A stretch of 38,451 nucleotides of DNA from IMG/VR virus record IMGVR_UViG_3300030419_002277, positions 1 to 38,451 of that record. One strand, given 5' to 3'. Below are positions 15,665 to 25,009 of this stretch, in pieces. Below the pieces are notes generated by a model, which searched no databases, had not been told where the DNA came from, and saw nothing but the letters and a program-made list of their open reading frames with translations. Source of the DNA: a virus. Each line of letters starts with the position of its first letter. Position 1 is the stretch's first letter. Made by a program: the position numbers and the translations under genes.

Positions 15665-15887
15665 GAGACACATTTTAGCATAAAATTTTATATGGGGTAG
15701 TACCAATACATGAAGAAAGCATGAACCACTAAGAACTACCCCCCCCACCTCCTGTCGCAGGTAACTGCGACCAGCACCACCACCACCACCTACACCCCCA
15801 CACACCCCCAGCCACCTGTCGCTTACAGCGACCACAACCCACACCTCCACCCCCACACCACCGGCACCCCCTCCCCGGGAATCTGTG

Positions 15888-15908
15888 GCAACTTGTCCCA
15901 CAAGTTGC
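15888..15908. promoter_or_regulatory. Perfect inverted repeat GCAACTTGT-CCC-ACAAGTTGC
   Basis: Nine-base arms separated by CCC, in the gap between terS and terL. No U-run follows on either strand, so it is not a classical terminator. It could be a protein-binding site (terminase recognition or an operator) or an mRNA hairpin. Confidence 0.55.
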
Positions 15909-15977: not shown

Positions 15978-16493
15978 TTATTCAGAGTCTTTTAAAGCCT
16001 CTTTATTTGGGTTTTCAGGTAGGTTTATATTGATTAGGGCTTGTATTAAACTCTTGGCTTGTTCGTCTATTGTGGCTTGATTTTTCTGTTCTCCGTATCG
16101 TTCAGGATATTTCTTAGACAACAGCCACTGACTATTCCTACTCTTTACCTGCTCATTCTGTGCAGTCGTTAACTCCGTTAATTGCAATGCTTCAAATTCA
16201 GTTACAGCCTCAGTTACTGTATCATGTAACTTTAGAGTTAATTGCTTGTATCTGTCACTAGGGTTTAGGTTCTTAGTATCTGTAACAGTATCTAGTAACT
16301 TACTTGGTTCTGTTTCTGTTTCTGTATCTAGTATCTGACGGCACTTCTCACCGAAACGGAGCCAACCACTAGCCACAGACTCAGACACCCCACAATGTCG
16401 AATTATAGCAACTGTAGGAGGCAGTCCTAAGCGTTCTATATCCCTCTTGATTAAGTCTATTTTCTTATTATCTATCTGAAGTTTTCTAGTCAT
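15978..16493 (-). CDS. terS: Terminase small subunit (171 aa)
   Basis: The DNA-recognition subunit of the packaging terminase. The N-terminus (residues about 10-50, LGLPPTVAIIRHCGVSESVASGWLRFGEK) is a helix-turn-helix, the middle is a Thr/Glu/Asp-rich linker with repeated TVT/TET patterns, and the C-terminal part has WLLSKKYPERYGE, a signature often seen in small terminases. It is the first gene of the leftward late unit, read from a divergent promoter at 16554-16583. The distance to terL (about 310 bases) is unusually long for this genome. Confidence 0.8.
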   Translation of the reverse strand: MTRKLQIDNKKIDLIKRDIERLGLPPTVAIIRHCGVSESVASGWLRFGEKCRQILDTETETEPSKLLDTVTDTKNLNPSDRYKQLTLKLHDTVTEAVTEFEALQLTELTTAQNEQVKSRNSQWLLSKKYPERYGEQKNQATIDEQAKSLIQALININLPENPNKEALKDSE

Positions 16494-16553: not shown

Positions 16554-16583
16554 ATAATACCTAATTATGTTAATACTTGACAA
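16554..16583 (-). promoter_or_regulatory. Likely sigma70-type promoter for the leftward late unit
   Basis: On the minus strand TTGTCA (16583-16578) and TATTAT (16559-16554) are 18 bases apart; each matches the consensus in five of six positions. Transcription would begin near 16547, about 50 bases before the terS start. It overlaps the -35 of the rightward promoter, so the two polymerases would compete. Confidence 0.5.
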
Positions 16584-16605
16584 ATGGTCTAAGGTGTGAT
16601 ATAAT
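16577..16605 (+). promoter_or_regulatory. Perfect consensus sigma70 promoter with extended -10
   Basis: TTGACA (16577-16582), 17-base spacer, TATAAT (16600-16605), with TG one base before the -10 (extended -10). An AT-rich stretch lies upstream. The predicted start is 16611-16613, exactly where the structured RNA begins with GGAGGC. A full consensus match implies very strong transcription by host polymerase. Confidence 0.85.
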
Positions 16606-16610
16606 GGAAT

Positions 16611-17440
16611 GGAGGCTTGAATAATGTCAAGAATTAAATGAGGCATTAAGTTCAGTTGAGGGAACGGTTAGTAAGTGCTGTGAGGCACATGTTAAGTTTG
16701 AGTCGAGGGCTAGGGCTGACGGGGGTCACAGTGGTACATCACTGAGGACTGACTCCCTAGGAAGCAGATGCAGTAGGAAACTCTGTTGTGAAGGTAGAGG
16801 AAGCGAACTAGTTATTAGATAGAATGATGAACGCAAGTTCTGACTGAGGAAGAGCCTAAGGTAAATGGGGACATGTACAAGAGTCCGAGTTGATGGCGAG
16901 GTAAAAGTAAATAGTTTGTAGCGAAAATGTCCCTCTGTAGTGCCATAGAGTTTAATCCTAGATTAGACTTGCTGAACCTATCAGAGACAATTCATGAATG
17001 GTAAAAGCATAATCAAGAAAACCTAATTATGTAAATATCTCCCAAGTGTTGAGGAAGGTTAGAACCATTAACTGAGCAACCTATTTTATAAATCCTGCAT
17101 ACTACTGAAGAACTGTAAATGCCTTTGGAGTAGGCTAGTCATAGCCTGCAGTACATAGAGGAATATAAGAAATTATGAACTTTATGTGCTTAATCTTTTC
17201 CGTCATGGTCGGAGATTTTCCTCTACAGAAACCCTAGCCGATTGGGGAGGGTTGATAGGGCGATTGTCAAGAACACGCCAAGGATAAAGTCAGGAATGCA
17301 CGGCGAAAAAATATTACTCATGATAAGTAATATCCTGCTATTGAAGGTGCCGATTGCAGAGAAACACAGGTGTAAAAATGTTTCCGAAAACAAAAAATAG
17401 CAATCAAGGGTTAGAGCCTCCTCTTTAACCCTTGTTATAG
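16611..17440 (+). ncRNA. Large structured noncoding RNA (about 830 nt), GOLLD/ROOL-like size class
   Basis: No open frame of useful length exists on either strand, yet the plus strand is full of compatible helices. Examples: CTTGA/TCAAG (16616/16627), CTAGGG/CCCTAG (16710/16755) around CAGTG/CACTG, GAAC-GCAA-GTTC with a GNRA loop (16829-16840), GGGACAT/ATGTCCC (16868/16927), a 9-bp hairpin at 16949-16969, an 8-bp hairpin at 17130-17149, TAGAGGAA/TTCCTCTA (17156/17218), AACCCT/AGGGTT (17230/17248), ATATTACT/AGTAATAT (17311/17326), GATTGC/GCAATC (17352/17400) and GAAACA/TGTTTC (17361/17379). The 5' end GGAGGC (16611-16616) matches GCCTCC (17416-17421) in the loop of the last hairpin, joining both ends. 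A perfect promoter precedes it. The family (GOLLD, ROOL or new) is not proven. Confidence 0.75.
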
Positions 17441-17446
17441 TAAAAA
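17405..17446 (+). terminator. 3' hairpin of the structured RNA plus degenerate box copy
   Basis: CAAGGGTTA (17405-17413) pairs with TAACCCTTG (17426-17434), followed by a weak U-containing tail and TATAGTAAAAA (17436-17446), a degenerate form of the box found after the other hairpins. The loop holds GCCTCC, complementary to the predicted 5' end of the RNA. Readthrough into the next gene is likely because the U-run is poor. Confidence 0.55.
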
Positions 17447-17463
17447 TTCATAAAGGGGGAATA

Positions 17464-17550
17464 ATGATTTGTGCATTTTGTAAACTTTTAAGGTCAATTA
17501 AACCTGAAATTATAGATGCTGATTGTGTGCTTTGTAACACAGCAGATTAA
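17464..17550 (+). CDS. 28-residue protein with two CxxC motifs
   Basis: The frame begins MICAFCKLLRSIKPEIIDAD and has Cys pairs at residues 3/6 and 21/24, the spacing of a minimal zinc ribbon. A purine-rich GGGGGA lies seven bases before the ATG, and a leader like that of the following cassettes (AATTCATAAAGG) precedes it. It sits directly after the structured RNA and before the first full cassette hairpin. Too short to assign; the Cys pairs and ribosome site argue it is translated. Confidence 0.6.
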   Translation: MICAFCKLLRSIKPEIIDADCVLCNTAD

Positions 17551-17553
17551 ATT

Positions 17554-17596
17554 GATTGAGGGGGCTGAAAAGCCCCCCAATCGTACTAGTAATAAA
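17554..17596 (+). repeat. Cassette element 1: hairpin plus TAGTAATAA box
   Basis: Hairpin 17554-17582 (twelve pairs, one bulged A, GAAA loop) after the 28-residue gene, then TACTAGTAATAAA (17584-17596) and the leader AATTCATAATAAGGAGG ahead of the next ATG. Confidence 0.75.
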
Positions 17597-17624
17597 AATT
17601 AATTCATAATAAGGAGGAATAATT

Positions 17625-18107
17625 ATGGGTTACACAATACAAAACAATAACAGTAAAATTGAAATTGTTGACGGCATTCACTATACAAAGAATGTAATCA
17701 AGGATTGGATTTTAGAACAAGTTAATGATGACTTTTATTCTGACTTTAACACTGATAGTTTATTAGGTGAAAAAGAAATAAAAGATAACTTTTTAGAAAA
17801 AATCAACACTTGGACTAATCAAAATTCTTGGGGTTCTGGAATGGTTTACTACAGTAACATTCTTAAATTTTATGATGAAAATCATGAATTTATTGATGAT
17901 TATGTTGATGAACAAGCAAGAGAACAAGGTTTAAACTACACGCAGTTAATTGATAGTTTTAATCAAAGGTGGAACGAGTCAAAACAACAATATGAAAAAG
18001 GCGATATTATTGTTGATATTGACGACATCAAAATTCAATGCACTGTTTACGCTATTGAGTCTAATGCCTTCATGTTACATGAAGAAATTTACTCAGCAAA
18101 AATATAA
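17625..18107 (+). CDS. Acidic early protein (160 aa), first of the cassette array
   Basis: A 160-residue acidic protein (MGYTIQNNNSKIEIVDG onward) with Asn/Asp/Glu-rich helices and a beta-rich C-terminal third (DIIVDIDDIKIQCTVYAIES). A strong AAGGAGGA ribosome site lies nine bases ahead. The central NSWGSGMVYYSNILKFYDENHEFIDDYV pattern resembles a group of phage hypothetical proteins with a conserved W...YY/D...F segment, but I give no family name. The acidity and early position suggest a host-interaction or DNA-mimic role; that is speculation. Confidence 0.75.
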   Translation: MGYTIQNNNSKIEIVDGIHYTKNVIKDWILEQVNDDFYSDFNTDSLLGEKEIKDNFLEKINTWTNQNSWGSGMVYYSNILKFYDENHEFIDDYVDEQAREQGLNYTQLIDSFNQRWNESKQQYEKGDIIVDIDDIKIQCTVYAIESNAFMLHEEIYSAKI

Positions 18108-18114
18108 TATATGA

Positions 18115-18153
18115 GGGGGGCATTCAAGCCCCCCTAATACTTCTAGTAAAATA
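18115..18153 (+). repeat. Cassette element 2: GGGGGGC hairpin plus box
   Basis: GGGGGGC-ATTCAA-GCCCCCC (18115-18134) follows the stop by seven bases; the box variant ACTTCTAGTAAAATA is at 18139-18153, then AATCATAATAGGAGG. Confidence 0.75.
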
Positions 18154-18177
18154 AACTAATCATAATAGGAGGATATT

Positions 18178-18405
18178 ATGACTGAGAAACAATTAATAGC
18201 AATCACTGAACTTCTAAAGAAGATAAGGAAAGATTATCAATATTCAGTTTTTCTAAACGATGAGCATGTTGCAAATAGAACAGTAGACATTATCGCACAT
18301 GGATTAACTGAGATTATTTTTCCTGATGCCTTTGGATATGATAATTCAAATAAGCAAAAATCAATAATTGCATCAAGAAAATTTGTAGATGCAACAAAAA
18401 TATAA
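18178..18405 (+). CDS. Small early protein of unknown function (75 aa)
   Basis: A 75-residue protein (MTEKQLIAITELLKKIRKDY onward), mostly helical by pattern, with a C-terminal Lys/Ser-rich stretch. It has a strong AGGAGGA ribosome site and is bounded by two hairpin-box elements, so it is its own translation unit. No family recognised. Confidence 0.7.
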   Translation: MTEKQLIAITELLKKIRKDYQYSVFLNDEHVANRTVDIIAHGLTEIIFPDAFGYDNSNKQKSIIASRKFVDATKI

Positions 18406-18411
18406 TTATCA

Positions 18412-18453
18412 GGGGGGGCATTCAAGCCCCCCCCTTAATAGTCTTAGTAAAAA
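18412..18453 (+). repeat. Cassette element 3: GGGGGGGC hairpin plus box
   Basis: GGGGGGGC-ATTCAA-GCCCCCCC (18412-18433), same loop as element 2, then TAGTCTTAGTAAAAA (18439-18453) and TTTCATATAGGAGG. Confidence 0.75.
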
Positions 18454-18478
18454 CAAATATTTCATATAGGAGGAAATT

Positions 18479-18850
18479 ATGAAATTAACAGAAAAAATCA
18501 GAAACCAAAGACTTGGCGAGGCTGTAGCATCAGGTTTAGAAGGAAATTACATACAAGATATGTATTTCATATTTGATGATGACGGATTTGTCAGTGACTC
18601 GGACGTTTATGCTTGGGGCAAGGATGAAGAGCAAGGAACTTGGCTTAATGAACAGGGCGAAACCATGCAAGAGGCTTGGGGCAGTAATGGTATTCAGTTG
18701 CTTATAAATGGCAAGAGAATTTATTATAAATTCAAAGGGGATATCAAAATTTATGGCTCAGAGTGCATTATAAGGGCAGGCGTTGGGTTGCTTGATACTG
18801 TAGAAGCAATTGAGTATGAAAAAGTTGTTGTGACTGTAACAAGTGAATAA
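18479..18850 (+). CDS. Early protein of unknown function (123 aa)
   Basis: The 123-residue protein starts MKLTEKIRNQRLGEAVASG and has an acidic middle (DDDGFVSDSDVYAWGKDEEQG), then alternating hydrophobic residues suggesting a beta domain (IQLLINGKRIYYKFKGDIKIYG) and a Val/Thr-rich end. The ribosome site is AGGAGGA at normal spacing. No family recognised; position in the cassette array is the only functional hint. Confidence 0.7.
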   Translation: MKLTEKIRNQRLGEAVASGLEGNYIQDMYFIFDDDGFVSDSDVYAWGKDEEQGTWLNEQGETMQEAWGSNGIQLLINGKRIYYKFKGDIKIYGSECIIRAGVGLLDTVEAIEYEKVVVTVTSE

Positions 18851-18855
18851 TATCA

Positions 18856-18891
18856 GGGGGGCATTTTGCCCCCCAATAGTTTTAGTAATAA
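18856..18891 (+). repeat. Cassette element 4: GGGGGGCA hairpin plus consensus box
   Basis: GGGGGGCA-TTT-TGCCCCCC (18856-18874), then the consensus box TAGTTTTAGTAATAA (18877-18891) and ATTCATAATAAGGAGG. Confidence 0.8.
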
Positions 18892-18920
18892 TTAAAATTC
18901 ATAATAAGGAGGATAAAATT

Positions 18921-19139
18921 ATGAAAACTTACCTAGTAAAAGAAACACAAATCGGTTACAAAAAGGTTACTGCTAAATCTAAAAAAGAGGCAATAGAAAA
19001 AGCAACGGATGTAGGTTTGGATGAAGGGTTTGGGGCGTTTGGAGATTGTCAATATACAGCAGTTGAGTCTAACGGAAAAGTTCATGTTGCTTTAACGGAT
19101 ATTACATATCAGGCTTACCTTTTAAAACAAGGAGAATAA
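18921..19139 (+). CDS. DpnD/PcfM-like small protein (72 aa)
   Basis: The start at 18921 is chosen because AAGGAGGA precedes it at proper spacing; the longer open frame from 18843 would run through the hairpin and box. The N-terminus (MKTYLVKETQIGYKKVTAKS, then KKEAIEKA) is a beta strand, beta strand, helix unit with the A-x-S-x-x-E-A pattern, like the small DpnD/PcfM-type domain of unknown role. A similar unit occurs in the 53-residue protein at 21861. Assignment is tentative. Confidence 0.7.
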   Translation: MKTYLVKETQIGYKKVTAKSKKEAIEKATDVGLDEGFGAFGDCQYTAVESNGKVHVALTDITYQAYLLKQGE

Positions 19140-19148
19140 TATAAATGA

Positions 19149-19184
19149 GGGGGGCATTTTGCCCCCCAATAGTTTTAGTAATAC
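19149..19184 (+). repeat. Cassette element 5: GGGGGGCA hairpin plus box
   Basis: Hairpin 19149-19167 is identical in sequence to that of element 4, followed by TAGTTTTAGTAATAC (19170-19184). The leader to the next gene is more diverged (TAGTCAATGGAGG). Confidence 0.8.
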
Positions 19185-19207
19185 AAATATTAGTCAATGG
19201 AGGAATT

Positions 19208-19474
19208 ATGACTATAATAAAAAGAACAGATTGGAACAGATATCCACCTGAAAGATTCTATGAATGTTTTAAATGTGGGAAAGAAGATAGGCAAGAGTTT
19301 GGGCAAGAAAAACAAATTTTTAAATTCGGTTGGTTTGCATCTATTAAAGATAGATTAAATCAGATACATGGATTAAAAGTAAATCCTGAGAAAAAAGTTT
19401 GGGTTTGTGATGCTTGTATAGTTGAACACCAACACCAATGGTGTTTGTCATCCTATCTCTTGGATGATGAATAG
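19208..19474 (+). CDS. Zinc-ribbon-like early protein (88 aa)
   Basis: Two Cys pairs, FECxxxC-type CFKC near residue 20 and CDAC near residue 69, give a four-Cys zinc-binding arrangement; a His-rich stretch (EHQHQWC) follows. I start it at 19208 because TGGAGGA lies six bases ahead; an earlier in-frame start would read through the preceding hairpin and box. A nucleic-acid or protein-binding role is plausible; family not recognised. Confidence 0.7.
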   Translation: MTIIKRTDWNRYPPERFYECFKCGKEDRQEFGQEKQIFKFGWFASIKDRLNQIHGLKVNPEKKVWVCDACIVEHQHQWCLSSYLLDDE

Positions 19475-19509
19475 GGGGGCTAACACCCCCCCCATAGTTT
19501 TAGTAATAA
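19474..19509 (+). repeat. Cassette element 6: GGGGGG hairpin plus consensus box
   Basis: GGGGGG (19474-19479) pairs with C-run 19486-19493 around CTAACA; the hairpin starts at the last base of the stop codon. Box TAGTTTTAGTAATAA at 19495-19509, then ATTCATATAGGAGG. Confidence 0.75.
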
Positions 19510-19531
19510 TAATTCATATAGGAGGATTAAT

Positions 19532-19816
19532 ATGAGTGAAAAAAATGCAAACGTCATCATGCTTGACAGCCATAATGATACATTTGGGTCAACGGAGGAA
19601 GAGATTTTCCATCCTCATTCTGAAGACTGGAATGTAGTTGAGTTGAAAGTCGATAAACCTCGTAGACTTGAAATGACTCAAGGAAGGTACTATACAGAGA
19701 TAAAACTGTTTATCTCAGATAACATTGAGCAACTAGAAAAACTTGCTGAATGGAGTAAAGTTTTGCAAAAAGGTGTCAAGAAACACATTAAAAACTTAAA
19801 AAAGGTGGAGGATTAG
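19532..19816 (+). CDS. Early protein of unknown function (94 aa)
   Basis: A 94-residue protein starting MSEKNANVIMLDSHNDTFG. The middle shows a strand-like segment ending in a basic motif (VVELKVDKPRRLEM), and the C-terminal 40 residues look like a coiled coil or helix (IEQLEKLAEWSKVLQKGV). The stop TAG lies inside the loop of the following hairpin. No family recognised. Confidence 0.7.
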   Translation: MSEKNANVIMLDSHNDTFGSTEEEIFHPHSEDWNVVELKVDKPRRLEMTQGRYYTEIKLFISDNIEQLEKLAEWSKVLQKGVKKHIKNLKKVED

Positions 19817-19847
19817 TCCTCCACCTAGTCTATCGTTTTAGTAATAA
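19804..19847 (+). repeat. Cassette element 7: hairpin with stop codon in its loop, plus box
   Basis: GGTGGAGGA (19804-19812) pairs with TCCTCCACC (19817-19825); the loop TTAG contains the stop codon TAG (19814-19816). Box TCGTTTTAGTAATAA at 19833-19847, then AATCATAATAAGGAGG. Confidence 0.85.
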
Positions 19848-19874
19848 TTAAAATCATAATAAGGAGGAATAATT

Positions 19875-20258
19875 ATGATGCAAATAGATGTAATACACAA
19901 AGCATTTGAGGATAAAGACAATCCACGAACAGTGGCAACTGTCACTATACCTAAAAACCTTTGGAATAACATTGACCTTGCCTTAGAATATGCTTTTCAC
20001 AGGACTCAAAATATATTTGGCTCTTGGTCAAAAAAACATATAAAAGGAATTGATGAAAATCATGACTGGGATGATAATGTTGAGGTCAAGGTGCCACTTC
20101 ATGTTGATAGTGATGGTGATGAATGGGGACTACGGTCTACATCAGTAGGCGATGAGATGGTTGCAAAAATCAAAACCGTTTTTGATACGCATTCTAAATG
20201 GAGGGTGGCTCAAAAATATAGAGTTGCAGGTGTTGGTTTTGAAAAGGTGGAGGCTTAG
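19875..20258 (+). CDS. Conserved phage protein of unknown function (127 aa), RSTSVGD motif
   Basis: I recognise the pattern ALEYAFHRTQNIFGSWS, then LRSTSVGDEM and YRVAGVGFEKV, from a family of small hypothetical proteins widespread in lytic phages, without a known function. The protein is acidic in the middle (DENHDWDDN). The start follows AAGGAGGA. The stop codon TAG is inside the next hairpin loop. Confidence 0.8.
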   Translation: MMQIDVIHKAFEDKDNPRTVATVTIPKNLWNNIDLALEYAFHRTQNIFGSWSKKHIKGIDENHDWDDNVEVKVPLHVDSDGDEWGLRSTSVGDEMVAKIKTVFDTHSKWRVAQKYRVAGVGFEKVEA

Positions 20259-20290
20259 TCCTCCACCTGCTCTAATAGTTTTAGTAATAA
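20246..20290 (+). repeat. Cassette element 8: stop-in-loop hairpin plus consensus box
   Basis: GGTGGAGG (20246-20253) pairs with CCTCCACC (20260-20267); the loop CTTAGT includes stop TAG (20256-20258). Box TAGTTTTAGTAATAA at 20276-20290. Confidence 0.85.
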
Positions 20291-20316
20291 AAACAAATTT
20301 TCCAAAGGAGGAAACT

Positions 20317-20472
20317 ATGGGAAAAATGAAAGAACTCTACGAAGATGCTAAAGATAATCTTGCTGAGGAGCAAGACACTTTTAATCTTGTAATTCTATTG
20401 AGGCAAAGAGGTTCATTATGGATAACAAATAAACTTGATGAACTAGAGCAGAAAATGGAGGGGCAAGAATGA
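20317..20472 (+). CDS. 51-residue helical early protein
   Basis: Starts MGKMKELYEDAKDNLAEEQD and is helical throughout, ending KLDELEQKMEGQE. A strong AAAGGAGGA site precedes the ATG at 20317. Its last codons overlap the next ATG (ATGA), and the next two genes are joined in the same way, so three genes share one cassette. No family recognised. Confidence 0.65.
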   Translation: MGKMKELYEDAKDNLAEEQDTFNLVILLRQRGSLWITNKLDELEQKMEGQE

Positions 20473-20570
20473 GTGAATGTAAATATTGCAGTTGTGAATT
20501 TATAGCAATAGATGAATTAAATATTTGTCATTATTGTTATGTAAATGTTTATAGCAAGGGGCAAGAATGA
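20469..20570 (+). CDS. 33-residue Cys-rich protein, minimal zinc ribbon
   Basis: The frame reads MSECKYCSCEF onward, with C4/C7/C9 and C20/C23, ending SKGQE. The spacing fits a minimal zinc-binding knuckle. It overlaps the genes on both sides by four bases (ATGA) and has a GGGGCAAG-type ribosome site, indicating coupled translation. The GQE ending is shared with its two neighbours' endings, perhaps because ribosome-site DNA (GGGCAAGA) encodes it. Confidence 0.6.
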   Translation: MSECKYCSCEFIAIDELNICHYCYVNVYSKGQE

Positions 20571-20785
20571 AAGCAACATTTATTGTTGATGAGTGGAACC
20601 AAAGCAATTTAACTATCAATGGGATTGAGTATGATGTAAATGTTTATGCTGACAATGAGGAAAAAGTCAGAGTAATCATTACAGGGTGCGAGGCAAATGA
20701 TGAAGGTAATTGCCAATCCCAAGACAAATTCGTCTTTGATGAAGCATTTGATATTGGAGTAGAGATTAAACAAGAGCAGGGCTAA
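20567..20785 (+). CDS. Small early protein of unknown function (72 aa)
   Basis: An acidic beta-rich protein (MKATFIVDEWNQSNLTINGI onward, with EKVRVIITGCEAND). It overlaps the 33-residue gene by four bases. The stop TAA lies in the loop of the following hairpin. No family recognised. Confidence 0.65.
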   Translation: MKATFIVDEWNQSNLTINGIEYDVNVYADNEEKVRVIITGCEANDEGNCQSQDKFVFDEAFDIGVEIKQEQG

Positions 20786-20814
20786 CCCCCCTGCTCTAAT
20801 AGTTTTAGTAATAA
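20774..20814 (+). repeat. Cassette element 9: stop-in-loop hairpin plus consensus box
   Basis: GAGCAGGG (20774-20781) pairs with CCCTGCTC (20789-20796); stop TAA (20783-20785) lies in the loop. Box TAGTTTTAGTAATAA at 20800-20814. Confidence 0.85.
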
Positions 20815-20835
20815 ACAAATCATGAGGGAGGCGTA

Positions 20836-20970
20836 ATGTCACACGACATTAATACCCAAATTTATGAAAAGATTTGGGAAGAGGTTGACTCAGACCCTGA
20901 TAACAAAAATTTATCTTACAAAGAAAAGATGAAAATTGTTAATCAAAAATTTGAGGATATGCAGGGCTAA
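20836..20970 (+). CDS. 44-residue acidic early protein
   Basis: A short frame starting MSHDINTQIYEKIWEEVDSD and ending KFEDMQG, acidic and helical. GGGAGG lies six bases before the ATG. Its stop codon sits in the loop of the following hairpin, the same design as the neighbours, which supports it as a real gene despite its size. No family recognised. Confidence 0.65.
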   Translation: MSHDINTQIYEKIWEEVDSDPDNKNLSYKEKMKIVNQKFEDMQG

Positions 20971-20993
20971 CCCCCTGCATGTTTTAGTAATAA
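20959..20993 (+). repeat. Cassette element 10: stop-in-loop hairpin plus box
   Basis: ATGCAGGG (20959-20966) pairs with CCCTGCAT (20973-20980); stop TAA (20968-20970) is in the loop. Box TGTTTTAGTAATAA at 20980-20993, then ATTCATATAGGAGG. Confidence 0.85.
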
Positions 20994-21015
20994 TAATTCA
21001 TATAGGAGGTAAAGT

Positions 21016-21321
21016 ATGAATGAAAATTATACATACAACGTAGATGAAATATCTCAAGATACAAGAAATTTTGAGATTGACTCTAACAAAAAACTACCAC
21101 AAGATATTGTGGAAAGTGTTTACAGAGAAATATCTTTTAAAAGAAATAAAGTAAGTGATATTACAAAATATACCTTACATTTTTTAGAAGAAGAAGGCTT
21201 TGATGTAAACCATGAAGACTTTAAAGGTTTAAAAGTTACAGGAACATTTACAGGAACTTACTATGGAGATGACTCACAAATAGAGTCAGGTGGCGAGTTC
21301 TTTGTATTGGAAGAGGCATAA
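21016..21321 (+). CDS. Early protein of unknown function (101 aa)
   Basis: A 101-residue acidic protein (MNENYTYNVDEISQDTRNFE onward) with a helical centre (DITKYTLHFLEEEGFDV) and a C-terminal beta hairpin (LKVTGTFTGTYYGD). The strong AGGAGGT site is eight bases before the start. Stop TAA is in the next hairpin loop. No family recognised. Confidence 0.7.
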   Translation: MNENYTYNVDEISQDTRNFEIDSNKKLPQDIVESVYREISFKRNKVSDITKYTLHFLEEEGFDVNHEDFKGLKVTGTFTGTYYGDDSQIESGGEFFVLEEA

Positions 21322-21351
21322 GCCTCTTCCTGTATATAGTTTTAGTAATAA
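21309..21351 (+). repeat. Cassette element 11: stop-in-loop hairpin plus consensus box
   Basis: GGAAGAGGC (21309-21317) pairs with GCCTCTTCC (21322-21330); the four-base loop ATAA contains the stop TAA. Box TAGTTTTAGTAATAA at 21337-21351, then ATTCATATAAGGAGG. Confidence 0.9.
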
Positions 21352-21378
21352 ACAATTATTCATATAAGGAGGATTAAT

Positions 21379-21804
21379 ATGAATGAAGCAAAAATAATCA
21401 GTTATAGACCTGCAAAGGTTGAGTCAACTTATGGAACAAGTTTGCGTGGTAATATTGACATTACTTATGACAAAATTGTTTCAAAGTTAGGCAAAGAACA
21501 TTTTGGGGCATCAGGTGATGAGAAAATTTTGGTTGAGTGGTGTTTTGAGTTTTCAAATGGAATAGTTGCAACTTTATACAACTGGAAAGATGGAAAAAAT
21601 TACGACCCAATCAACGGCTTAGATAAAGAGGAAATCACAGACTGGCATATTGGGGGATATAACCAAGATGCAGTGCTTTTGATGAATACATTATTGATGA
21701 GTGATTTTGAAAATGAACCAACATCTACGGTTGGTGTATTCAATACTCATATAGTATACCCTGAAACAGGTTTATCAAGTTTTCAACTAAAGAGGGGCTA
21801 TTAA
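21379..21804 (+). CDS. Conserved phage protein of unknown function (141 aa), ATLYNWKDGKNY motif
   Basis: The segment VEWCFEFSNGIVATLYNWKD, followed by GKNY and EEITDWHIGG, matches a family of hypothetical proteins I have seen in many unrelated lytic phages; I know no function. The N-terminus (ISYRPAKVESTYG) and the C-terminal TGLSSFQLKRGY are less distinctive. It is the second largest cassette protein and its stop lies at the loop edge of the following hairpin. Confidence 0.8.
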   Translation: MNEAKIISYRPAKVESTYGTSLRGNIDITYDKIVSKLGKEHFGASGDEKILVEWCFEFSNGIVATLYNWKDGKNYDPINGLDKEEITDWHIGGYNQDAVLLMNTLLMSDFENEPTSTVGVFNTHIVYPETGLSSFQLKRGY

Positions 21805-21833
21805 GCCCCTCTCATCTATCGTTTTAGTAATAA
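21791..21833 (+). repeat. Cassette element 12: hairpin across stop codon plus box
   Basis: AGAGGGGCT (21791-21799) pairs with AGCCCCTCT (21804-21812); stop TAA (21802-21804) spans loop and right arm. Box TCGTTTTAGTAATAA at 21819-21833, then ATTCATATAAGGAGG. Confidence 0.85.
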
Positions 21834-21860
21834 ACAATTATTCATATAAGGAGGTAAAGT

Positions 21861-22022
21861 ATGAATGAAGAAAAAGAATATGAGGTAATTATTAAAGGTA
21901 ACATTGGAGTTATGGCTACCTCTAAAGAAGGAGCAATACGCTGGGTAAAAGATAATCTACATCTTATTTATTTAGAGTTTGATTTGCACGAAATAAAATT
22001 AGAAGTAAAAGGGCAGGAGTAA
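21861..22022 (+). CDS. 53-residue early protein, small beta-alpha unit
   Basis: Reads MNEEKEYEVIIKGNIGVMAT, then SKEGAIRWVKDNL, ending KLEVKGQE. The strand-strand-helix layout with an AxSxxEAI-type helix start resembles the 72-residue DpnD/PcfM-like protein at 18921. AAGGAGGT precedes the start. The stop codon is in the loop of the next hairpin. No function known. Confidence 0.7.
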   Translation: MNEEKEYEVIIKGNIGVMATSKEGAIRWVKDNLHLIYLEFDLHEIKLEVKGQE

Positions 22023-22051
22023 CCCTCCTGCTCTAATAGTTTTAGTAACAA
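22013..22051 (+). repeat. Cassette element 13: stop-in-loop hairpin plus box
   Basis: GCAGGAG (22013-22019) pairs with CTCCTGC (22025-22031); the loop TAACC begins with the stop TAA. Box TAGTTTTAGTAACAA at 22037-22051. Confidence 0.85.
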
Positions 22052-22080
22052 AAATTGAGGGGCATCAAAAGGAGGCATAG

Positions 22081-23151
22081 ATGCCAAAATTAGGATTAGA
22101 CTTACAAGACTTGGCAAAGAAAATTACAGACCAAGCAGAAAGAAAAGTTGACATGGTTGTTGACAGTAGAAGTATGCAATTACTTCCTACTGAAGAGAAT
22201 GATGCGACAACTTCTGCACCAGTCTTAATGAGTATTGCTGACTCTAAAAACTTAGAGATTACTCCTACTGCACACAGACAACTAGCAACAAGGTTAAAAA
22301 TTCCATTCAACTACTACGAAAGAGTAATGGAAAACAACCCAGTATTGTTAACAGAAAATGTTAACAACTGGCTAGGACAAACTGAAAACAAAAGAATGAT
22401 AAGAACTTATGGCTCAGACGGTTCAACTGTTTGGGATGTCATGAGGGCTGACTTGTCTAACAAGTATCTTGCTTTTGATAATGAGGATGTCGCTGAGGCT
22501 GTGTTGCCTGTAATGTTTGATGAAAACTTAGAAGTTATTTCTTCAAATGTTACTGAAAGAAAACTTTACATCAAGGCTGTAACCGACAGGCTAACAGGCG
22601 AGATTAAAAAAGGTGATGTAGTTAGAGGGGGAGTAATCGTAAGTAACTCAGAAGTTGGATTTGGTTCTGTAAATGTTCAAGCATACATTGAAAGATTAGT
22701 TTGCATGAACGGAATGATTGCAGAGAAATCTTTTTCTAGGAGACATATTGGAGTCGCCCAAGACATAACAGACTTACTCAGTAGAGATACACTTAACAAG
22801 ACTAGCGATGCTTTAGTTGGTCAGGTTCAAGATGTAGTTAAGAATGTATTGTCTAACGAGGGTTTCAATACTATCTTAGGAAAACTTCAAGAGACTACTG
22901 AAGTTGAAATAGCAAAACCTATTGATGCTGTTGAAATTATACAGAAACAGTTTAGTTTCACAGACAATGAAAAAGACTCTGTTCTTAACCACTTAATAAA
23001 AGGTGGGGACACAACTAAGTGGGGTCTTACAAATGCCGTGACTAGAACATCTCAAGACTTAGAGGACTACGATAGAGCCACTGAGTTTGAGGCGTTTGGT
23101 TGGGACATTGCAAACATGAACAACAAAGTGCTAGAGCCTGCTCTAGCCTAA
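22081..23151 (+). CDS. DUF932 / phage-plasmid-like protein (356 aa)
   Basis: The central region (AHRQLATRLKIPFNYYERVM, RMIRTYGSDG, WDVMRADLSNKYLAFDNEDV, then LYIKAV and GVIVSNSEVGFGSV) is the characteristic layout of the DUF932 family found in phages and plasmids, whose biochemical role is not settled. The length is normal for the family. It is the largest protein in the cassette array and has AAAGGAGG ahead of its ATG. Its codon use does not stand out from the neighbours. The gene ends a run of tiny proteins and is followed by two hairpins. Confidence 0.85.
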   Translation: MPKLGLDLQDLAKKITDQAERKVDMVVDSRSMQLLPTEENDATTSAPVLMSIADSKNLEITPTAHRQLATRLKIPFNYYERVMENNPVLLTENVNNWLGQTENKRMIRTYGSDGSTVWDVMRADLSNKYLAFDNEDVAEAVLPVMFDENLEVISSNVTERKLYIKAVTDRLTGEIKKGDVVRGGVIVSNSEVGFGSVNVQAYIERLVCMNGMIAEKSFSRRHIGVAQDITDLLSRDTLNKTSDALVGQVQDVVKNVLSNEGFNTILGKLQETTEVEIAKPIDAVEIIQKQFSFTDNEKDSVLNHLIKGGDTTKWGLTNAVTRTSQDLEDYDRATEFEAFGWDIANMNNKVLEPALA

Positions 23152-23160
23152 CACACTTGG

Positions 23161-23185
23161 CTCACAGACAAGCCCCTCCTGTGAG
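23161..23185 (+). terminator. 7-bp hairpin after the DUF932 gene
   Basis: CTCACAG (23161-23167) pairs with CTGTGAG (23179-23185); the loop includes CCCCTC. It lies ten bases after the stop and is followed by a U-poor stretch, so termination would be weak. Confidence 0.45.
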
Positions 23186-23200
23186 TCTTGTTTCAATGAA

Positions 23201-23244
23201 TAGAGAGGGGACTATTTATCCCCTCTCTAGTGTCATAGTAACAA
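23201..23244 (+). repeat. Cassette element 14: 11-bp hairpin plus variant box
   Basis: TAGAGAGGGGA (23201-23211) pairs with TCCCCTCTCTA (23219-23229). The box is diverged (TAGTGTCATAGTAACAA, 23228-23244) and is followed by AAAGGAGG. Confidence 0.75.
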
Positions 23245-23259
23245 TCAAAGGAGGTATCT

Positions 23260-23274
23260 ATGATTGGTATTTAA
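23260..23274 (+). other. Four-codon open frame behind a strong ribosome site (empty cassette or leader peptide)
   Basis: AAAGGAGGT is followed by ATG-ATT-GGT-ATT-TAA, a peptide of four residues (MIGI). The next box follows within 25 bases. All other cassettes carry a gene here, so this is either the scar of a deleted gene or a deliberate leader or ribosome-stalling site. Confidence 0.4.
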
Positions 23275-23295
23275 ATAAATGATACAGCAAATTTA

Positions 23296-23310
23296 TAGTC
23301 TTAGTAAAAT
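23296..23310 (+). repeat. Cassette element 15: box without hairpin
   Basis: TAGTCTTAGTAAAAT is followed by a leader ending AAAGGAGGT before the ATG at 23335. No GC-rich hairpin precedes it, consistent with loss of a gene end upstream. Confidence 0.65.
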
Positions 23311-23334
23311 TAATATCCGTAAAGGAGGTAAATT

Positions 23335-23619
23335 ATGGATGTAAGAAGGATTGATTTCTTCATGTTGGGATTTATCCTAACAAGGTTAGCAGTAACACTT
23401 GAATTACAAGCACACGCAGGTTGGCACGAAGTTGACCCTGAGTTTCGTAAAACTCTAAGCAAAGCAGTTGACATAGCATTAGACTGGCATCATGTTATGT
23501 TAGATAAACAAAATCGCCACGATTTTGCAATGTCAATAATTTCTGCACAACCATCTTCATTCTTTGAAGTACCATTAGGTAAAAATGGTGAACTAAATGT
23601 TCAAAGCAGGAACAAATAG
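23335..23619 (+). CDS. Early protein of unknown function (94 aa)
   Basis: A 94-residue protein starting MDVRRIDFFMLGFILTRLAV, with a hydrophobic N-terminal helix, a central helix (RKTLSKAVDIALDWHHVMLD) and a C-terminal segment that may be flexible. The early hydrophobic stretch could be a membrane contact or simply a core helix. The strong AAAGGAGGT site precedes it. No family recognised. Confidence 0.7.
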   Translation: MDVRRIDFFMLGFILTRLAVTLELQAHAGWHEVDPEFRKTLSKAVDIALDWHHVMLDKQNRHDFAMSIISAQPSSFFEVPLGKNGELNVQSRNK

Positions 23620-23653
23620 AGGGGGTAACTCCCCTCTATAGTTTTAGTAATAA
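23617..23653 (+). repeat. Cassette element 16: hairpin beginning at the stop codon plus consensus box
   Basis: TAGAGGGG (23617-23624, including the stop TAG) pairs with CCCCTCTA (23631-23638). Box TAGTTTTAGTAATAA at 23639-23653, overlapping the hairpin by no base. Confidence 0.85.
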
Positions 23654-23778
23654 AAACAACTTCCATATACATTCAACATAGTGTAATATGAAATGGATGG
23701 CTTTCTAGCCTTCCTCAACCGACCAAAATGGCGACCTCTTTTAGGGGTCGCCGTGTCTAAAAAGCAAAGGAGGAATAT
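23654..23778 (+). promoter_or_regulatory. Structured 125-base leader before the TTG-start gene
   Basis: Unlike the other cassettes, the stretch between box and gene is long. It holds an imperfect hairpin GGATGGCT-TTCT-AGCCTTCC (23695-23714, one mismatch) and a strong one with arms GGCGACCTC and GGGGTCGCC (core 23730-23752), then AAAGGAGGAATAT and a TTG start. Translation of the next gene may depend on this leader. No known riboswitch motif seen. Confidence 0.5.
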
Positions 23779-24003
23779 TTGCAACAAGTAGAGATATATA
23801 AAATGAATGACTCAGTAACATTGGTGTCACAAAATCCGGCAGCGAGAGAATTTATTGAGAAAAATGTAGAGCAAAAGCATTGGGCATTCATGGACCCCTC
23901 AGATAAATTAAGTTCTCCTATTTTAATTAATCCTGATTTCTATATACCAATAATAGGTTTATTAAAAACCAACAACTTTTCTGTTGCAGTTAACGGTAAG
24001 TAA
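23779..24003 (+). CDS. Early protein with TTG start (74 aa)
   Basis: The start is a TTG five bases after AAAGGAGG; the first ATG is ten codons in, with no ribosome site. The protein reads MQQVEIYKMNDSVTLVSQNP and continues with a helix and short strands (LINPDFYIPIIGLLKTNNFS). No family recognised. The rare start together with the structured leader suggests limited, regulated expression. Confidence 0.65.
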   Translation: MQQVEIYKMNDSVTLVSQNPAAREFIEKNVEQKHWAFMDPSDKLSSPILINPDFYIPIIGLLKTNNFSVAVNGK

Positions 24004-24017
24004 TGGTATGGTTAGGT

Positions 24018-24032
24018 AAGTCTTAGTAATAA
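24018..24032 (+). repeat. Cassette element 17: box without clear hairpin
   Basis: AAGTCTTAGTAATAA, followed by AAAAGGAGG and a second TTG start at 24057. No strong hairpin lies between the preceding stop and the box. Confidence 0.7.
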
Positions 24033-24056
24033 CTAATAAATAAAAGGAGGTCTTAA

Positions 24057-24602
24057 TTGACAACTGAAACACCTGAAAAAGGTAATCCATACATTCATAA
24101 TGACGATACACCTGAAATTCTTGTGTTAGATAATATGCAAGGTGAAAAAGCATATTACCAAACACTTACGGCTAAGGTCGGACCAAAGAGTCAATACGGT
24201 GATGCTTGGGCATTAGAGGGTATTTATGGTTTTTGGAACTCAAAGACACCACTTAATAGTGGTCAAGTAATTGAGGTTCAATTATCAAGAAAGCCTAAAG
24301 TTCAAGGGTCAGGATGGTACCAAGATATGGTATCTGTAAAAATACTTGAGGGTCATGTTGCAGAGGAGTCATCTGATAATTCTGCAAAAGTTCCTGTGCC
24401 TGTTTCTAATACAGGATACGATGCCAGAAATAAATCCATTGAAAAACAAGTGGCTGTAAAAGGCTTTGTTGAAATGACACCTCATGTAGAGGCTTTAGTT
24501 TCTGCAGGGTTTATGAGTAAGGAGACTGCTGTTGACATCATCAGGTTTGCTTACGAGGGCTGTAAAGACCTGTACGGAGGAGAGGTTCCTTGGGATGAGT
24601 AA
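24057..24602 (+). CDS. Putative OB-fold / single-strand DNA-binding-like protein (181 aa)
   Basis: Start is TTG, seven bases after AAAAGGAGG. Residues about 25-110 alternate strands with conserved aromatic residues (AYYQTLTAKVGPKSQYGDAW, then QVIEVQLSRKPKVQGSGWYQ and MVSVKILEG), the texture of an OB-fold. A flexible linker and a small helical domain follow, and the protein ends in GGEVPWDE, an acidic tip with Pro-Trp-Asp like the C-terminal tail of SSB proteins that recruits partners. The next gene overlaps its stop. A role in coating single-stranded DNA near the replication genes fits position, but the family is not certain. Confidence 0.6.
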   Translation: MTTETPEKGNPYIHNDDTPEILVLDNMQGEKAYYQTLTAKVGPKSQYGDAWALEGIYGFWNSKTPLNSGQVIEVQLSRKPKVQGSGWYQDMVSVKILEGHVAEESSDNSAKVPVPVSNTGYDARNKSIEKQVAVKGFVEMTPHVEALVSAGFMSKETAVDIIRFAYEGCKDLYGGEVPWDE

Positions 24603-24798
24603 ACTTTTATTCAATGTAAAGGAAACTGCTGAAATAATTGGTATAGGCAGGAATAGACTTTACGGTCTTATCAAAGACGGAAAGATTAAATGTGTCAGAA
24701 TGGGACCACACTTCAAAATCACTCAAGACTCTATTAATGAGTTCATGGGCAGATTAAGTGAGAGTGGTTCTGTAGATGACTTACCAACAGTAAATTAG
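24595..24798 (+). CDS. Excisionase-type helix-turn-helix protein (67 aa)
   Basis: The start ATG at 24595 overlaps the upstream stop by eight bases, with GGAGGAGAGG ahead of it; a longer frame starting with TTG at 24532 lacks a site. Residues 6-45 (FNVKETAEIIGIGRNRLYGL, IKDGKIKCVRMGPHFKI) are the winged helix-turn-helix of the MerR/Xis-like HTH_17 type. Such proteins act as excisionases or DNA-binding adaptors. With no integrase in sight, a role in replication or gene control is more likely than excision. Confidence 0.8.
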   Translation: MSKLLFNVKETAEIIGIGRNRLYGLIKDGKIKCVRMGPHFKITQDSINEFMGRLSESGSVDDLPTVN

Positions 24799-24800
24799 TT

Positions 24801-24866
24801 GGTTGGGGTATAGGTTCCTCCAAGAAAGATGAGTTTTAATCATCGACTCATCACCTATACCCAACC
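24801..24866 (+). ncRNA. Structured element A: 14-bp stem with CCUCC-containing bulge
   Basis: GGTTGGG (24801-24807) and TATAGGT (24809-24815) pair with ACCTATA (24853-24859) and CCCAACC (24860-24866), one G bulged. Inside, GATGAGT (24828-24834) pairs with ACTCATC (24846-24852). The one-sided bulge of 12 bases contains TCCTCC, complementary to a Shine-Dalgarno sequence. It starts two bases after the HTH gene. It may be an mRNA regulatory element or a small RNA. Confidence 0.55.
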
Positions 24867-24874
24867 CTATTTAA

Positions 24875-24956
24875 TGTGAGGTTGAGGATTTTTAAAACAA
24901 TACGGCAATTAAAGGATTGCCAACTGGTTGTTTAATTTTTAGACCTTAACCTCACA
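24875..24956 (+). ncRNA. Structured element B: nested three-helix stem-loop
   Basis: TGTGAGGTTGAGG (24875-24887) pairs with CCTTAACCTCACA (24944-24956) over 13 pairs (one G-U). Within it AAACAA (24895-24900) pairs with TTGTTT (24928-24933) and GGCAAT (24904-24909) with ATTGCC (24916-24921). It stands next to element A and just before the last box. No coding capacity. Confidence 0.55.
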
Positions 24957-24962
24957 ACTTAA

Positions 24963-24977
24963 ATGTCTTAGTAATAA
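24963..24977 (+). repeat. Cassette element 18: last box copy
   Basis: ATGTCTTAGTAATAA, followed by AAAGGAG and AAGGAGG before the ATG at 25010. No further copy is visible downstream in the replication module. Confidence 0.7.
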
Positions 24978-25009
24978 AAAAAATCCAAAGGAGATATAAG
25001 GAGGAACAA

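Follow-up and report, generated by a model that had tools for sequence, protein, structure and literature searches.

The 38,451-base stretch of DNA analysed here (hereafter, the window) is a single virus record and carries a large structured non-coding RNA of approximately 825 nucleotides (nt) at positions 16612–17435 of the plus strand. Our analysis suggests that it is probably a stand-alone RNA that forms a family of its own and works like GOLLD and ROOL. The original prediction of a large structured non-coding RNA in a phage is borne out by a promoter at the 5′ end, by conserved synteny and by strand-specific covariation in relatives, and a covariance model matches the locus in the window.

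The RNA lies between two divergent gene blocks. Leftward run the late genes, from terL and a terS-like gene (15978–16493, minus strand) that is divergent from the RNA and served as an anchor in our homologue search; rightward run the early genes, from position 17464. No open reading frame (ORF) of at least 60 amino acids was found between the end of terS (16493) and 17625, the longest ORFs inside the RNA comprise 56 (minus strand) and 52 (plus strand) amino acids, and no ORF common to all homologues was found, in agreement with the lack of coding capacity proposed previously. The coordinates given then are also correct for GGAGGC (16611), CAGGA (17291), TCCTG (17333), TGCACGGC (17297) and GCCGATTGCA (17349), and GCCTCC does lie in the loop of the 17405–17434 hairpin. 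The first early ORF, outside the RNA (17464–17550, plus strand), encodes 28 amino acids with two CxxC pairs (MICAFCKLLRSIKPEIIDADCVLCNTAD) and may be a tiny zinc-binding peptide; a small cysteine-containing ORF directly follows the RNA in relatives too. At the border of terL and terS (15780–15900), the window has a C/A-rich low-complexity stretch (CCACCACC..., CCCCCACACC...), also present in L016 and L219, which the automatic ORF call reads as a Gly/Val-rich N-terminal extension of TerL and which may be a packaging or origin site.

Upstream of the RNA is a sigma70-type promoter, TTGACA-17-TATAAT with an extended −10 TG (16577–16605, plus strand). This 12/12 match is the sole one in 14.0–31.5 kb, and each of the 11 homologues has a TTGAC-type promoter at the equivalent place. 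Its expected start site, at about 16611–16613, agrees with the previously predicted 5′ end, placing the start at approximately 16612. A proposed pairing of the 5′ GGAGGC with GCCUCC, thought to fix both ends of the transcript, did not hold up: the complementarity is present in the window but absent in most relatives, which retain the CCUCC loop without a 5′ GGAGG, so that this pairing is not what defines the ends. Further into the RNA is a small hairpin, UGAC-GGGG-GUCA, with a G-rich loop (16717–16728, plus strand), and each lineage of relatives has a G-rich motif (AGGGG, GGGGG or AGGAGG) near the equivalent place. These G-rich motifs, in the window and in its relatives alike, may conceivably serve as alternative partners of the CCUCC loop.

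Searches of viral contigs with TerL and TerS yielded approximately 30 loci with a TerL at least 77% identical. Wherever the contig extends far enough, terS and the early genes are separated by a non-coding block of 700–800 nt that is preceded by a promoter and closes with a CCUCC-loop hairpin. Besides the window, these loci provide 11 distinct complete sequences, several of them more than 90% identical, in two lineages: A (L021, L032, L035, L040, L041, L042, L044 and L016) and B (L029, L036 and L038). With the window RNA as query, blastn matches are confined to the promoter region in the nearest relatives and to a repeated intergenic signal. Because MAFFT misaligns the 3′ part of the window RNA against the others, the window was excluded from all covariation counts.

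By shuffle statistics that ignore phylogeny and cover few homologues (11 distinct), the eight lineage-A RNAs have a consensus energy of −107.3 kcal/mol, compared with −63.1 ± 5.3 for 191 column-shuffled alignments (z = −8.3). Their compensatory pairs number 47, compared with 17.5 ± 4.0 (maximum 28) in the same shuffles; the reverse strand reaches only −64.5 and 30 compensatory pairs. In the 3′ half, the 11 RNAs of both lineages together give a z of −7.0 and 25 compensatory pairs versus 6.4 ± 3.1, with 11 on the reverse strand. Within the 3′ domain, 97.3% of cells are paired and 13 pairs have double changes, a level reached in none of 500 shuffles and in no slid version. Taken alone, the two 5′ modules give z-scores of −4.8 and −1.5, a weaker signal that reflects the few sequences sharing each module. 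Strand-specific compensatory pairing is thus present in the homologous intergenic regions, where covariation had been anticipated and, as judged from the aligned sequences, the folded shape of the RNA is kept across relatives through compensating mutations.

Folding of the window RNA by itself gives z = −2.43 on the plus strand and −2.16 on the minus strand (20 shuffles each). Because this signal is weak and lacks strand specificity, the mutually compatible helices previously drawn by eye in the window, although many, prove little. That the RNA is structured stands through covariation in relatives; it is the comparative evidence, not single-sequence folding, that exceeds chance.

To what extent the window RNA belongs with these homologues can be assessed with a covariance model of the 3′ domain (R1), built without the window. 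Its best match in the 38-kb window is 17280–17443 on the plus strand (E = 0.014; next match, 0.18), exactly the syntenic place, which indicates that the window RNA is a diverged member of the homologue group. Support for its membership comes from synteny, shared motifs and a modest model score. R2, a sequence-only model of the middle region that gained no base pairs, misses the window. Among motif-pattern scans, an initial one gave an excess of chance matches, a stricter one recovered no contigs beyond those already known and a window-specific one had no matches. Among isolated phages we found no DNA relatives, and TerL relatives of at most approximately 26% identity among the matches listed; no TerL relative was found in bacterial genomes. 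In 58 loci from less closely related phages (TerL 48–54%), R1 has no match. More distant phages (L191, L189, L223, L215 and L218) have a different candidate RNA of approximately 350 nt in the gap between terS and the early genes. Its non-coding sequence is approximately 80% identical and includes a hairpin in which CUUUGUU/AACAAAG is replaced by CUCUGUC/AGCAGAG; its energy z is −3.2 (three sequences), and its compensatory-pair count is not above that of shuffles. L188 has a long non-coding block after terS (570–1260 from the terL start), with a perfect hairpin at its end and a sequence unlike the others.

The window RNA and its 11 homologues share an ordered series of motifs, all on the plus strand: the loop motif GAAUGnnAAAA (16996–17006), GUUGAGG (17048–17054), the invariant 12-mer AAGUCAGGAAUG (17287–17298), CCGAAA (17384) and the CCUCC loop (17417). 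In relatives, the stem that flanks GAAUGnnAAAA covaries (CUG/CAG, GAG/CUC, GUG/CAC and GUGAC/GUCAC), and GUUGAGG is a hairpin loop on a stem that differs between lineages. CCGAAA together with an A-rich single strand (17383–17396) precedes the 12-bp terminal hairpin CAAGGGUUAGAG-CCUCCU-CUUUAACCCUUG (17405–17434), in which the CCUCC loop is kept in 12 of 12 RNAs on differing stems. In dinucleotide shuffles of the window RNA, the 12-mer arises in 8 of 20,000 and the ordered chain, with gap ranges chosen after the data were seen, in 0 of 20,000.

The 3′ domain of the window contains a helix (17297–17358, plus strand) in which UGCACGGC (17297–17304) pairs with GCCG-AU-UGCA (17349–17358) and which encloses a hairpin, AUAUUACU/AGUAAUAU (17311–17333). 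Its UGCA/UGCA arm is compensated across lineages (UGAA/UUCA and UGCU/AGCA), as is another helix in relatives (UCCAAG/CUUGGA, UCUAAG/CUUAGA and CUCAAG/CUUGAG). One half of the pseudoknot proposed previously is therefore supported by the compensatory changes in this arm. The other, CAGGA/UCCUG, is a possible pairing that drew no such support: its 5′ side is invariant, and both L038 and L029 disrupt the pairing. The RNAs of lineages A and B have a predicted pairing between their 3′ CUUAGUAA and an internal segment of UUACUAAG type, a partner absent in the window. The idea of a group I intron, raised by GAGAUAGUCC in lineage A, found no support in Rfam.

Conservation is unevenly distributed along the RNA. 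Identity between L042 and L032 is 95% at the start, falls to 27–48% across the next approximately 180 columns and reaches 100% in the 3′ part; between L040 and L016 it is approximately 95% in early columns (60–180), 32–48% in the middle and 80–94% at the 3′ end. The 5′ and middle modules are 23–50% identical between some pairs, and the 3′ part, at up to 100%, is the best kept. Whole modules of the RNA appear to have been swapped between phages. Such swapping, with retention of the 3′ domain and terminal loop, resembles that of host-interaction proteins and suggests that the outer domains may face a varying host target or defence.

The surroundings of the RNA indicate how it may be expressed. 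After most early genes (17.4–25 kb) comes a module of a G+C-rich hairpin, then TAGTAA, then a Shine–Dalgarno site. The commonest TAGTAA form, GTTTTAGTAA, is repeated without change at 11 sites on the early strand; the opposite strand has a single exact copy, located elsewhere. The first copy of this intercistronic module, UAUAGUAA (17436–17443, plus strand), ends the RNA, which thus effectively opens the early operon as its first cistron. Further module sites lie in early intergenic regions (window 17436–25000), for example at 18883, 19176, 19501, 19839, 20282, 20806, 21343 and 21825. The intercistronic hairpin GGGGGGCATTTTGCCCCCCAATAGTTTTAGTAATA occurs in two identical copies (18856–18883 and 19149–19176), which suggests a recent duplication of the module. 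No U-tract directly follows the module stem, so the module may signal RNA processing and not termination. Given a terminal hairpin without a U-tract, and with no second strong early promoter seen, the RNA probably doubles as the early-operon leader.

A cis-acting role in this leader would be the main alternative to a stand-alone RNA: as the 5′ part of the early mRNA, it would act on processing or on RNA polymerase, one example being an antitermination element like the HK022 put RNA that would let polymerase read through the hairpins after early genes. We regard this as a minority possibility. The RNA does lie directly between the only 12/12 promoter in 14.0–31.5 kb and the early operon, and read-through of the hairpin and TAGTAA after most early genes would be needed if the hairpins terminate; without adjacent U-tracts, however, they may not terminate at all, and the RNA has a hairpin and module of its own at its end, as a separate cistron would. 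To our knowledge, known antitermination RNAs are far smaller than approximately 825 nt, which also counts against a leader. The precedent is put itself (PMC9378689), a cis-acting antitermination element of early phage transcripts; it is likewise an early-transcript RNA of a phage, but far smaller.

Alternatively, the CCUCC loop could control translation by pairing with the complementary AGGAGG Shine–Dalgarno sites of early genes, making this a base-pairing regulatory RNA. Retention of the loop in all 12 terminal hairpins despite differing stems fits this idea, as do the AGGAGG or AAGGAG sites at most early genes. We nevertheless consider it improbable: exact matches of at least 11 nt to phage mRNAs are at chance (early, 2 versus 2.7 expected; late, 2 versus 4.7), the loop may instead pair with the G-rich motif of the RNA itself, and the other approximately 800 nt would be left unexplained.

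Like other large structured phage non-coding RNAs, the window RNA exceeds approximately 500 nt, is non-coding, is phage-encoded and has extensive covarying structure. GOLLD forms a 14-mer RNA cage and ROOL an octameric one, and the size and phage location that had prompted the comparison with them are confirmed. At gathering score, Rfam has no match to GOLLD, ROOL or any other family in the window, and permissive searches (E up to 5–10) of the window and three homologues gave only chance-level matches and neither GOLLD nor ROOL. The caiA RNA (24.6 bits; gathering score, 55.5) and the FuFi-1 RNA (17.8 bits; gathering score, 59.6) were rejected. Recognisable membership in GOLLD or ROOL is thereby ruled out, and a new class, which the original prediction had offered as its other option, is the best fit to the evidence; no description of the family was found in the open literature searched.

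GOLLD is phage-encoded, often longer than 800 nt and better conserved in its 3′ region than in its 5′ region, with a function that is not known (PMC12286853). The window RNA has the same size, variable 5′ part and conserved 3′ part, by itself no proof of membership, but differs in lacking an Rfam match and in heading an early operon beside terS. ROOL, also large, structured and phage-encoded, is proposed to act as RNA alone (PMC12286853); the window RNA shares the first three properties and has no match to the Rfam ROOL model. A very diverged GOLLD or ROOL RNA, already disfavoured, is highly unlikely despite the similar size, phage setting and GOLLD-like conservation: Rfam is negative even at permissive E-values, and the window has no tRNA genes (ARAGORN), near which GOLLD is often, though not obligatorily, found. 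Another RNA of similar length, approximately 800 nt, is the most abundant transcript of Vibrio phage ICP1 and occupies the gp139/gp140 gap (PMC7567579). This gap is likewise ORF-less, with tRNAs absent nearby, but sits at the lysis cluster, and R1 has no match in the ICP1 region holding that RNA.

It is very improbable that the stretch is instead an element acting as DNA (a replication origin or a packaging site) or a sequence remnant with no function as RNA: it adjoins terS in a gap between divergent gene blocks, a usual place for pac or ori, but strand-specific compensatory pairing and a dedicated strong promoter argue against this.

For a stand-alone RNA, we propose that host sigma70 RNA polymerase would start at approximately 16612, from the strong promoter, early in infection, and that the transcript would fold into many helices. 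Its 3′ end would be set by the CCUCC-loop hairpin, probably through RNA processing or weak termination, because a proper U-tract after the hairpin is absent. Released from the early transcript, it would be a free, stable RNA acting in trans, either alone or as an assembly held by loop–loop contacts, as GOLLD and ROOL are thought to be. More tentatively, as a possibility short of an expectation, it may represent a new giant phage RNA class of exchangeable domains, the outer ones facing a varying host target or defence, and possibly a multimeric RNA particle.

Known phage RNAs that combine this length with a conserved structure are few, and neither GOLLD nor ROOL has yet been assigned a function. 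The RNA described here would add a family without an Rfam match that has a fixed place heading the early operon and appears to evolve by module exchange. Its fixed synteny, invariant loops and swappable domains may offer comparative handles on what such RNAs do.
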